Assembly: GCA_025153775.1 (NCBI GenBank)
Contig: JAOALC010000004.1
Coordinates: forward strand, 1 to 64,000
Source of the DNA: SAR92 clade bacterium H231
Lineage (GTDB): Bacteria; Pseudomonadota; Gammaproteobacteria; Pseudomonadales; Porticoccaceae
DNA: 64,000 nucleotides
Reading direction: 5' to 3'
The translations under genes and the position numbers were made by a program. This document shows, one piece after another, positions 45,389 through 62,382 of the stretch (position 1 is the stretch's first letter; the number at the start of each line of letters is the position of its first letter). The notes beneath the pieces were generated by a model. That model was not told the DNA's origin. It made no database searches and was given only the letters and a program-made list of their open reading frames with translations.

Positions 45389-47650
45389 TCAGCTAGTCTC
45401 AACGTCAACAATGACACGCTTTAACGTTTGATTGAATACGAATGGTGATGTGTACGCGCGACTAATCGGAGCATGGCGGTTTTCACCACAGCGAATACCA
45501 GAATTGGGCGTATAGATCGGCCAAAGTTTTGGCAACAACATCACACCCAAACTCTGATCGTCTAAAGCTACTTTGGCAACCCTAGAATCAAGGTCGGCTT
45601 TACTGATCTCGACTGTTAATTTGTGCTCGCCTATGGGTATTCTTCGACGTGATTTGAAAGTATAAACAGCATCTCTGGTGTAGACATACACGATGTGAAG
45701 ATAGCCTTTTTGCATAAATAATTCGTAACCACTGCTACTATCTCCTGAAGCAAGGATCACTCCGTTTATATCTCGAGTGCGTACCGTCATTTCGGCGGTT
45801 ATCAGCGAATTATAGTTATATATATCTGGAGCACTCAGCCGGTCCAGGCGGGTCATACCAGGGTAGAAGACGTGGGTAGAGCGAGGCTGTGGCACAGATG
45901 CCTTATAGAGCTTTAAAGTATCATCTTCTAGGGGTAAAACATCATACCGCTGCGCATCAGCATGCCAGAAGGCGATAAGTTCGCTTAGGCGCTGGGGCTC
46001 GGCGTCAGCAAGATTTCTCGTTTCAGAGTAATCTTCTGCGGTATTGTATAGCTCCCAAACATCCTTATTGAAATCCTGACCTTTGACGTGTCTGGTAACT
46101 GCCTTCCAGCCATCTTTCCACATCGCCCTGTCACCCAGAGTTTCGTAGTATTGGGGACCTTTTCGGGTCGCTACATTCGGATTATCGAAAGTGTAGGCAA
46201 AACTGGTGCCATGAAGCTCTAAAGATCGATGGCCTTTGTGTGTAGTGGGCACCTCGAGATTGGCCATATTGAGTAGCGTGGGCAATAGGTCAATCGCATG
46301 ATGGTACTGAGAATTAATCTGTCCTTTGGGCAAATTGCCGTTTGGCCAGGTAATTAAAAGCGGCGATCTAATGCCCCCTTCATAGGTATCACTCTTGTAC
46401 CATTTTAAGGGAGTATTGCTAGCCTGTGCCCAGCCTCCTACATTGGCTGGTTGGGACAATTCGCTTCCGAGCAAATCAATATTTGCCAGTCTCTCTGCCC
46501 AGGGTTCTCCAAGGTAGCTGCCCCGTCGAACGTCATGCATCCCATTGCGGCCAGCACTTGCTGTTGCCCCGTTGTCAGAGGTAAATATAACAATGGTGTC
46601 GTCATACACATTCTCATCTTTTAGGGCTTGAATAAGACGCTGCATCTGTGCGTCAGTATGTTCTAAAAATGCCGCATAGATTTCTTGTGTGCGTGCGGCA
46701 TAGCGGCGTTCATCAGCACTGAGATCATCCCATTTAATATGACTGCCATTGGCTTCTGGAAGGCTCGCCTCCTCAGGCACGATACCCAGTATTTTTTGCC
46801 GCTCGAAACGTTTTTTCCGAGCAAGATCATAGCCCTGATCAAATTTACCTCTCTGCCGTTCAATATCTTCTGCGGGTACATGTAATGGAAAGTGACAGGC
46901 GCCAAAACCTATATAATGAAAGAAAGGCTTTTCGGGAGCTGCAGCAAGATGATTTTGGATATAGCTAATTGACTTGTCCACTAGATCGACACTGAGATGA
47001 TAGTCTTTACCCTTGTCGGGATAGGTCGGTGATACATTCTCAAATAATTCTGGATGCCAGTGGTCGACTGCAGAACCGTGAAAGCCGTACCAATGATCAA
47101 ATCCCCGACCCGTTGGCCAGTGGTCAAAAGGGCCAGTCCCATTTTGGTCTTCCAGTGGCGTCATATGCCATTTTCCACAGGCACTTGTGTAGTAACCCTG
47201 CTGAGCAAATATTTCCGCCATAGTTGCCGCATCTTGTCTGATCCAGCCATTGTAGCCTGGTTGATCTTTTTGAGCCCACTCAGCAATATTACCAACGCCT
47301 ACAGAGTGCGCGTTTCTGCCAGTAAATAGGCAGGCTCTTGTGGGCGCACAAACTGCCGTAACATGGAAGTTATTGAATCTCGTTCCATTTTTTGCCATGG
47401 ATTCGGAAAATGGCATCTCATAATCGGATCCAAAACAACTTAAATCAGCGAAACCTACGTCGTCTAGAACGGCAATCACAATATTGGGCTGGCGAATATT
47501 AACTCTTGGAGTCCAGCCTTTATCGGCAATGCTATTTTGATTCAGTTGACTTGAAGGAGTAGGCTCTTTGTATAAAGATTTGGCGTTTACTACTCCGCTG
47601 GCACCTGAGGCCGCAATCACCTCGAGAAATCTTCTTCTAGATAATTGCAT
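45389..47650 (-). CDS. Type I sulfatase, exported
   Basis: A 753-residue arylsulfatase-family enzyme. SRRRFLEVIAASGASG is a Tat-type signal. Metal ligands include D63/D64 in VLDDVGFADL; CAPTRACLFTGR begins at C101, the residue converted to formylglycine (C-x-P-x-R rule). KWHMTP and TSDNGA complete the core. The last ~150 residues form an extra beta domain. It removes sulfate from an organic sulfate ester, probably in the periplasm; a formylglycine-generating enzyme gene is not in the window. Driven by the symmetric palindromic promoter at 47740-47781. Confidence 0.92.
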   Translation of the reverse strand: MQLSRRRFLEVIAASGASGVVNAKSLYKEPTPSSQLNQNSIADKGWTPRVNIRQPNIVIAVLDDVGFADLSCFGSDYEMPFSESMAKNGTRFNNFHVTAVCAPTRACLFTGRNAHSVGVGNIAEWAQKDQPGYNGWIRQDAATMAEIFAQQGYYTSACGKWHMTPLEDQNGTGPFDHWPTGRGFDHWYGFHGSAVDHWHPELFENVSPTYPDKGKDYHLSVDLVDKSISYIQNHLAAAPEKPFFHYIGFGACHFPLHVPAEDIERQRGKFDQGYDLARKKRFERQKILGIVPEEASLPEANGSHIKWDDLSADERRYAARTQEIYAAFLEHTDAQMQRLIQALKDENVYDDTIVIFTSDNGATASAGRNGMHDVRRGSYLGEPWAERLANIDLLGSELSQPANVGGWAQASNTPLKWYKSDTYEGGIRSPLLITWPNGNLPKGQINSQYHHAIDLLPTLLNMANLEVPTTHKGHRSLELHGTSFAYTFDNPNVATRKGPQYYETLGDRAMWKDGWKAVTRHVKGQDFNKDVWELYNTAEDYSETRNLADAEPQRLSELIAFWHADAQRYDVLPLEDDTLKLYKASVPQPRSTHVFYPGMTRLDRLSAPDIYNYNSLITAEMTVRTRDINGVILASGDSSSGYELFMQKGYLHIVYVYTRDAVYTFKSRRRIPIGEHKLTVEISKADLDSRVAKVALDDQSLGVMLLPKLWPIYTPNSGIRCGENRHAPISRAYTSPFVFNQTLKRVIVDVETS

Positions 47651-47739: not shown

Positions 47740-47781
47740 ATACTATTAATAATTGACTTCGAAGTCAATTATTAATAGTAT
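47740..47781. promoter_or_regulatory. 42-bp perfect palindrome forming two divergent promoters
   Basis: The arms are 21 bp each, perfect, with no loop, centred between 47760 and 47761 on TTGACTTCGAAGTCAA. Rightward: TTGACT 47753-47758, 17 bp, TAGTAT 47776-47781. Leftward, by symmetry: TTGACT 47768-47763, 17 bp, TAGTAT 47745-47740. It serves the sulfatase set (left) and the HisD-family set (right). The centre TTCGAA is shared with other operators of this island. Confidence 0.82.
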
Positions 47782-47826: not shown

Positions 47827-49107
47827 ATGATAACAGTGTTAAAAAAAGGTATCTCAGACGAGAAGAGCCGCGAGGCGAGCAAGCAGGTTCAGGAGATTGT
47901 GGAAGGGATATTGCAAGGCATTACCGACCAGGGTGATGCTCATGTGCGTGAGTTATCAGAAAAATTTGATAATTGGTCGCCCACCAGCTTCCGTCTGTCT
48001 GACGAGGAAATACAGGCATGCATTGATAGTCTGCCGGAGAACACTTTGCGAGACATTAAATTTGCCCAGGAACAGGTGAAAAACTTTGCTCGCATTCAAC
48101 TCGACTCCATGAAGAATGTAGAGGTGGAAACACGTCCTGGTGTCATCTTAGGGCACAAACATCTACCTATGAATAGCGTTGGCTGTTACATTCCGGGGGG
48201 CAAGTATCCTTTGGTAGCCTCAGCTCATATGAGTGTAGCTACAGCCAAGGTGGCCGGCGTAAAGCGAGTGATAGCATGCGCACCACCGTTTAATGGAAAA
48301 CCTATGCCTGCAATTGTTGCCACCATGGCCTTGGCCGGAGCGGATGAAATATATTGCTTTGGCGGTGTTCAGGCCGTTGGCGCCATGGCATTGGGGACAG
48401 AAACGATCCTGCCAGTTGATATGATTGTAGGTCCTGGTAATGCCTACGTAGCAGAGGCAAAACGGCAACTTTTTGGTCGGGTAGGTATTGATTTGCTTGC
48501 CGGTCCAACCGAAACACTTATTATTGCCGATGAGATTGGTTGTGACCCTGAAATGGCTGCAACAGATCTTTTAGGTCAGGCGGAACATGGCGTTAATTCA
48601 CCCGCGATATTGCTAACCAATAGTAAAGACTTTGCCAATGCGACTGTTAAAGAGGTTGAGCGGCAGTTAGAAACTCTTGAGACGGCGAAAATTGCTGGGC
48701 AAGCCTGGTGTGATTATGGGCAAGTGATTGTCTGCGATACCTATGAAGAGATGGTTCAGGTTGCCGATGATTTAGCTTTTGAGCATGTCCAGGTGATGAC
48801 CCAAGACCCAAATTATTTCCTCGAAAATATGACCAATTTCGGCGCGCTATTTCTTGGGCCTGAAACCAATGTCTCCTATGGTGATAAGGTGATTGGCACT
48901 AACCACACCCTACCAACCAATAAGGCTGCAAGATACACCGGTGGCCTCTGGGTGGGTAAGTTTATTAAAACATGCACCTATCAGCGAGTAACACCGGAAG
49001 CGACAGTAGAAATTGGTGAATATTGCTCGCGCCTTTGCGCTCTGGAAGGATTTGCAGGCCATAAAGCGCAGGCGGATCTTCGTGTAAAAAGATACCAGAA
49101 AACTTGA
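47827..49107 (+). CDS. Histidinol dehydrogenase-family NAD-dependent alcohol dehydrogenase (HpsN-like)
   Basis: A 426-residue HisD-fold enzyme. Conserved blocks: [55 protein letters not shown] with its zinc-binding Gln/His, and [20 protein letters not shown]. The IPGGKYP and [15 protein letters not shown] forms look closer to the catabolic HisD branch, which includes sulfopropanediol dehydrogenase HpsN, than to biosynthetic HisD. No his genes lie nearby; instead a sulfatase is divergent to it. So oxidation of a catabolic alcohol to an acid is likely, substrate unproven. Confidence 0.85.
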
Positions 49108-49153: not shown

Positions 49154-49900
49154 ATGACAAATTTAGCTGGCAAGGTTGTTTTAATCACAGGAGCTGCAGG
49201 CGGTATTGGCTCGGCGATCTCTTTGGCTTATGCAGCTGTTGGAATAAAAGTTATTGTTGGGTACAACAGTAACTTTGAAAAAGCACAGAAGCTTTGTGAG
49301 TCTCTGCCCGGTGATGGCCATGTGACTAAACATGTTCCTGTTCTGGATAGTGCAGCATTGAGTTCTCTGGCTGATGAGATTAAACAAGACATGGGCCGCT
49401 TAGATATTCTTGTCAACAATGCAGGGGTAACCAAGGTTGTGCCACACCAGGATCTTGACGGTCTGCAAGACGAGGATATCGACAGGATTTTAGCAACGAA
49501 TTTTCGAGGGTCTTTTGCCTGTGTCCGTGCTTTTCAGGATTTACTGGCTAAAAGTGGGGAAGGATTGGTCGTCAACATATCGTCTATCGCTGGCACTACA
49601 GCTGTTGGGAGTAGTGTCGCCTATTGCGCATCCAAAGCGGCTATCAATTCTATGACCATGTCATTAGGTCGCGCCCTAGCCCCTAATATTCGTGTTGTGG
49701 CGGTTGCTCCGGGTTGGGTGGCTGGCGAATATGCTAGCCGCGTAGATCCAGCCTATATGCAAGAACAGATAGATAAAACTCCCCTAGGCCGTATCGCAAA
49801 CGCATCAGATGTAGCGAACACTGTTGTGGCATTGTCAACGACAGTTACATTTAATACTGGCTGTATTATCCCTGTAGATGGTGGCCGGCCACTAACCTAA
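49154..49900 (+). CDS. SDR family NAD(P)-dependent oxidoreductase
   Basis: A 248-residue short-chain dehydrogenase with TGAAGGIGSAISLA cofactor loop, NNAG, catalytic Ser in NISSIAG and YCASK for Tyr/Lys. The end TGCIIPVDGGRPL is standard. It is 46 bp downstream of the HisD-family gene and probably acts on the same pathway, reducing or oxidising a keto/hydroxy intermediate. Compare the SDR at 27637, which has lost Tyr and Lys. Confidence 0.88.
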   Translation: MTNLAGKVVLITGAAGGIGSAISLAYAAVGIKVIVGYNSNFEKAQKLCESLPGDGHVTKHVPVLDSAALSSLADEIKQDMGRLDILVNNAGVTKVVPHQDLDGLQDEDIDRILATNFRGSFACVRAFQDLLAKSGEGLVVNISSIAGTTAVGSSVAYCASKAAINSMTMSLGRALAPNIRVVAVAPGWVAGEYASRVDPAYMQEQIDKTPLGRIANASDVANTVVALSTTVTFNTGCIIPVDGGRPLT

Positions 49901-61066: not shown

Positions 61067-61095
61067 ATGGTATTGTACTTCGAATGCAAAAGCAA
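61067..61095 (-). promoter_or_regulatory. Bicupin promoter with TTCGAA operator filling the spacer
   Basis: Minus strand: -35 TTGCTT (61095-61090), a 17-bp spacer that is exactly TTGCATTCGAAGTACAA (61089-61073), and -10 TACCAT (61072-61067). The spacer is identical, base for base, to a site ahead of the TonB receptor gene at 62365-62381. Confidence 0.68.
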
Positions 61096-62187: not shown

Positions 62188-62228
62188 GAACACAGCCCTC
62201 CAAATTCGATATGCAGCAAAGTATGCTA

Positions 62229-62241
62229 GCTTCGAAGTCAA
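62229..62241. promoter_or_regulatory. TTCGAA-type site upstream of the secreted hydrolase
   Basis: GCTTCGAAGTCAA at 62229-62241, with TTCGAA at 62231-62236, 44 bp before the hydrolase start. It shares TTCGAAGTCAA with the right half of the 47740 palindrome, including the TTGACT on the minus strand. It is one of two such sites in the 308-bp hydrolase/receptor gap (62188-62495). Confidence 0.5.
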
Positions 62242-62353: not shown

Positions 62354-62382
62354 TTGACTCAGGCTTGCATTCGAAGTACAAA
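62354..62382 (+). promoter_or_regulatory. TonB receptor promoter with TTCGAA operator
   Basis: TTGACT at 62354-62359 and TACAAA at 62377-62382, 17 bp apart; the operator TTGCATTCGAAGTACAA (62365-62381) overlaps spacer and -10. A leader of roughly 100 nt would precede the receptor start. Confidence 0.55.

Follow-up and report, generated by a model that had tools for sequence, protein, structure and literature searches.

A perfect 42-bp palindrome as a putative shared control region of two divergent catabolic units in a SAR92 clade bacterium

Overlapping divergent promoters under the control of one repressor are found in the tetR/tetA system. To our knowledge, neither the tetR/tetA promoters nor those of the pLS20 conjugation genes are exact mirror images of each other. 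One divergent unit of such a system is often the regulator gene itself. Bidirectional promoters of another kind share a −10 box, and their symmetry loads RNA polymerase in either direction with mutually exclusive binding (Warman et al. 2021; Warman et al. 2026, PMC12825309). In local regulons of the LacI family, the regulator is linked to a catabolic gene cluster, and several operators, as a rule even palindromes with a central CG, lie before the catabolic genes (PMC4052901).

Here we compare with these systems a 42-bp perfect palindrome from SAR92 clade bacterium H231, found in a 64-kb stretch of DNA (the window) between the start of a sulfatase gene and that of a HisD-family gene. We consider it probable (about 0.85) that the palindrome serves as a control region shared by both sides, comprising overlapping mirror promoters and one LacI-family operator for two divergent catabolic units. 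The arrangement resembles the LacI-family regulons (PMC4052901) in its even central-CG palindrome, cluster-linked regulator and multiple operators, but differs from them in that the operator is fully symmetric, its two half-sites are seemingly the −35 boxes of opposite promoters, and the arms lengthen the symmetry to 42 bp. Like the bidirectional promoters of Warman et al. it would load polymerase either way, one binding event excluding the other. However, its promoters overlap back to back at the −35 region and have separate −10 boxes, 30 bp apart, so that opposite starts around one shared −10 box are not found here. In addition, its symmetry is perfect and coupled to an operator. It resembles tetR/tetA and the pLS20 conjugation genes, as outlined in PMC4207663, in that two divergent promoters overlap within a single control region, but both of its units are catabolic.

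The palindrome and its putative promoters

An earlier note on this DNA had described a loop-free perfect palindrome with arms hard to keep by chance. The palindrome is confirmed and goes far beyond chance. The arms, ATACTATTAATAATTGACTTC and GAAGTCAATTATTAATAGTAT, are 21 nt long, 100% complementary and directly adjoining. They are the longest perfect arms in the window, where 100 dinucleotide-preserving shuffles gave at most 12 nt, and form its sole perfect inverted repeat of at least 14 nt with a short spacer. The motif that the note had read on both strands, TTGACT, 17 bp, TAGTAT, is likewise present, at 47753-47781 (+) and 47768-47740 (−). Each −10 box matches only four of the six consensus positions. 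The two core promoters overlap by 16 bp on opposite strands, and mutual exclusion of polymerases would therefore follow from the geometry. Table 1 lists the features. The nearest solved relatives of the HisD-family protein are sulfopropanediol 3-dehydrogenases (388 bits, versus 283 for histidinol dehydrogenases).

Table 1. Features of the palindrome, its flanking genes and further operator sites
Feature	Positions	Strand	Evidence
42-bp perfect palindrome, putative symmetric divergent promoter with embedded operator	47740..47781	.	arm search, shuffles
Operator core TTGACTTCGAAGTCAA, central CG, predicted LacI-family site	47753..47768	.	genome-unique; conserved upstream of hisD in relatives
−35 box TTGACT of hisD promoter, left operator half-site	47753..47758	+	17-bp distance to TANNNT in 18/19 genomes
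−10 box TAGTAT of hisD promoter; predicted start ~47788	47776..47781	+	promoter match, relatives' footprint
−35 box TTGACT of putative sulfatase promoter, right operator half-site	47763..47768	−	promoter match
−10 box TAGTAT of putative sulfatase promoter; predicted start ~47733	47740..47745	−	mirrored −10 intact only with divergent sulfatase
Sulfatase (PF00884), twin-arginine-like N-terminus, left-hand target gene	45389..47650	−	domain match
HisD-family dehydrogenase, right-hand target gene	47827..49107	+	domain match, solved relatives
SDR dehydrogenase, probably within hisD transcription unit	49154..49900	+	domain match
Second operator type (TTGCATTCGAAGTACA read on −), upstream of cupin gene	61074..61089	−	operator search
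Second operator type facing TonB-dependent receptor gene; TACAAA possible −10, TTGACT 17 bp upstream	62365..62380	+	
Weaker operator-like site (3 mismatches), alpha/beta hydrolase gene start	62226..62241	.	

The proposed mechanism is as follows. A dimer of a LacI-family protein would occupy 16-20 bp in the middle of the palindrome, centred on the CG. Each half-site TTGACT would double as the −35 box for one direction, the outer arms supplying the two −10 boxes, and a single bound dimer would therefore block both −35 boxes and silence both genes. An inducer, presumably one of the cluster's substrates or intermediates, would release the dimer, leaving DNA on which RNA polymerase could load in either orientation, probably one molecule at a time. 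The expected outcome is roughly matched transcription of the hisD-SDR unit and the sulfatase gene.

Conservation and origin of the mirror form

The hisD gene occurs in 12 of the 112 genomes of the family, and the exact 16-mer TTGACTTCGAAGTCAA in six, one copy each and every time upstream of hisD. A scan of the whole collection for the 20-mer matched six contigs, with about 0.2 matches expected by chance in 257 Gb. Five carry this hisD gene; the other, an Actinomycetes contig (L005), was set aside as a chance match, having no hisD and no symmetry outside the searched motif. In 18 of 19 genomes, TANNNT followed the left half-site hexamer (TTGACT/TTGCAT) of the operator nearest hisD at a spacing of exactly 17 bp; no other spacing between 10 and 24 bp gave it in more than two. 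This footprint is strong evidence that the hisD promoter carries its −35 box inside the operator, and it favours the divergent-promoter reading of the earlier note on the hisD side.

Conservation of the symmetry, which that note had proposed to check in relatives, is partial: the full mirror recurs in two other genomes (G014 and G038), but most relatives are asymmetric and one-way. Most members of the window's clade have the core TTGACT...AGTCAA. Other lineages have an asymmetric hisD operator (TTGCATTCGAAGTCAA, or a form in ...CAT, TTGCAT...), which makes the promoter one-way. In G135 the exact 16-mer stands 228 bp away from hisD and lacks a −10 box at 17 bp, while a nearer asymmetric site has one; the core thus appears usable in other ways.

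A complete mirrored −10 box was found only where the sulfatase gene is divergent, that is in the window genome (G000), G014 and G038. In each it is the same as the species' own hisD −10 box (TAGTAT, TAATAT and TAGCAT, respectively). It is absent in G111, G108, G015 and G022. The sulfatase side of the divergent-promoter reading thus draws support from three independent loci, several of the relatives being fragmentary metagenome assemblies; G018 (= L001) is mirrored too but was left out of the counts, as its contig stops at the palindrome.

The same comparison bears on the rather unlikely alternative that only the hisD promoter works, the sulfatase promoter lying elsewhere and the mirrored arm being a side effect of either template-switch correction or the symmetry of the operator. 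The one-way hisD promoter of most relatives would fit, as would a further weak promoter-like match on the minus strand at 47692-47664, but confinement of the full mirrored −10 box to divergent-sulfatase loci would not. G099 speaks on both sides. It has no sulfatase gene, its next gene is 500 bp off and no gene starts close on the left, and still its arms are symmetric across 19 nt; yet the symmetry fails exactly within the −10 box, which is broken (TAACCC).

In a tree of HisD proteins the sequences of G000, G038, G014 and G018 group together (support 92/88), with asymmetric G022 as sister (90/87), and the full mirror form therefore looks derived, with moderate support. Across the three divergent-sulfatase loci six columns vary, and in three of them (11, 18 and 19, counted from the centre) both arms show the same change (P about 5e-4 by column shuffling, on these three loci). 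Of these three, 18 and 19 correspond to −10 box positions three and four, which are commonly less constrained and lie beyond the 16-22 bp that LacI-family sites typically span. Palindromes are known to be made perfect by template switching between their arms (PMC8794818), as is also outlined in PMC7202029. The three loci are suggestive of arms that change together between species through template-switch copying; shared selection on both promoters is an alternative explanation.

More tentatively, the second promoter may have been born by palindromisation: a template switch across the LacI operator would have mirrored the hisD −35 and −10 boxes onto the opposite strand, and repeated correction would keep the copies identical. 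We regard this as possible but doubtful. If true, matched divergent promoters under one repressor could arise in a single step, by palindromisation; the sulfatase neighbour would have gained a mirror-image promoter, and both promoters would evolve in concert.

The candidate regulator and its cluster

A LacI-family gene, whose product has the domains PF00356 and Peripla_BP, lies outside the window at contig 68826-69899 (L026:4826-5899), about 20 kb past hisD and 21 kb from the palindrome. Linkage of a LacI-family gene to hisD on the same contig, at about 0-21 kb, is seen in G000, G014, G022 (partial, at the contig end), G099, G111 and G135. It is also seen in G649, G622, G158, G358, G120, G153, G189, G217, G216, G345 and G187, the last nine being further clusters within the order, for a total of 17 clusters. 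In G108 the gene is present on a separate contig. Several relatives have it directly 3′ of hisD, where it would come under the hisD operator. No LacI gene turned up in G018; in the fragmentary G038 and G015 none was recovered at the search thresholds. A second copy in G023 (C84:2113-3162, L033), 91% identical and with one in-frame TGA, may be decayed or may come from a mixture of strains. Nine orthologues share the recognition helix GVSQSAVSR unchanged, and three paralogues in the window genome have a different one; a published LacI recognition code gave no readable rule for the Gln-Ser pair of this helix. No other regulator gene was recognised in the catabolic cluster.

A second operator type, TGTACTTCGAATGCAA, has three copies in the window genome with at most one mismatch (contig 61074, 62365 and 68528). 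All nine LacI-bearing genomes that were searched contain it, either exactly or one mismatch away, and none of seven same-genus genomes without a LacI match has it with at most one mismatch. Operators of like design recur throughout the catabolic cluster in relatives. Read toward the downstream gene, most of the asymmetric operators end in TACANN, and about ten of 26 sites have TTGACT or a close match 16-18 bp upstream; asymmetric operators thus also seem to carry promoter elements. At the level of the order, one-mismatch matches near the LacI cluster were found only in G000, G014, G135, G158 and G358, and most of the order-level one-mismatch matches look like chance. The LacI start lies 283 bp from the copy at contig 68528, which faces a SnoaL-type gene, and we do not claim LacI autoregulation in the window genome.

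The core TTGACTTCGAAGTCAA is an even palindrome with a central CG, within the 16-22 bp of LacI operators. The linked regulator has the HTH and periplasmic-binding-like parts of its family, and sites precede several cluster genes and are confined, among the genomes searched, to those bearing the regulator. From this linkage, co-occurrence, shared operator design and central-CG symmetry, the core is best read as the operator of the linked LacI-family protein, which is a strong candidate for the dimeric regulator that the earlier note had postulated. Some other dimeric regulator could instead bind the palindrome, and the 21 kb that separate the LacI gene from it, as well as the failure to find the gene in G018, are in keeping with that. 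We think this improbable given the co-occurrence over 17 clusters, the invariant recognition helix and an operator design common to the cluster and typical of the family (PMC4052901).

The cluster (window 42126-62247 and L026:1-7442) is large and patchy; its marker, hisD, is in 12 of 112 family genomes. It contains repeated SnoaL-type proteins, a cupin, a MetE-like protein, a propionate-CoA-ligase-like enzyme, an aldehyde dehydrogenase, a sodium symporter, a TonB-dependent receptor and an HpcH-type aldolase. An integrase-like gene, read from the sequence, lies just past the cluster's LacI/aldolase end (L026:8207-9544, contig 72207-73544). The cluster may be a genomic island. One contig titled Flavobacteriaceae TMED48 (L002, the same as G111:C100) bears the gammaproteobacterial cluster, falls with this family and is probably from a mislabelled bin.

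Remaining explanations and meaning

A perfect inverted repeat could also suggest a terminator, a REP-like element or a mobile-element remnant, and the earlier note had named a terminator-like or mobile remnant as what would refute its reading. Such an origin is very unlikely here. The palindrome gives no terminator-like match and has no G+C-rich stem-loop followed by a U tract, and the site lies between two gene starts. A dispersed repeat or mobile element end would have more than one genomic copy, whereas the 16-bp core is single in the 2.93-Mb genome even with two mismatches allowed, and holds an orthologous position in relatives. An assembly fold-back, as is likely at the contig end of G018 (L001/L058), where the exact mirror runs suspiciously to 34 bp past the palindrome centre, can be dismissed with similar assurance for the window copy, since its flanks are asymmetric beyond the 21-nt arms, it lies within a 604-kb contig, and G014 and G038 have independent, different symmetric arms.

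The palindrome, read as a shared control region, is a concrete case in which operator half-sites are seemingly −35 boxes in both directions, such that one dimer could silence two promoters and their outputs could be tied. Relatives show one-way, full mirror and broken mirror forms, so that direct tests can be made of how a divergent promoter is born and decays, and of whether template switching maintains the match of its halves. From this reading one would also expect the genes of an uncharacterised marine-bacterial catabolic cluster, among them an HpsN-like dehydrogenase and a sulfatase, to form a LacI-controlled regulon.
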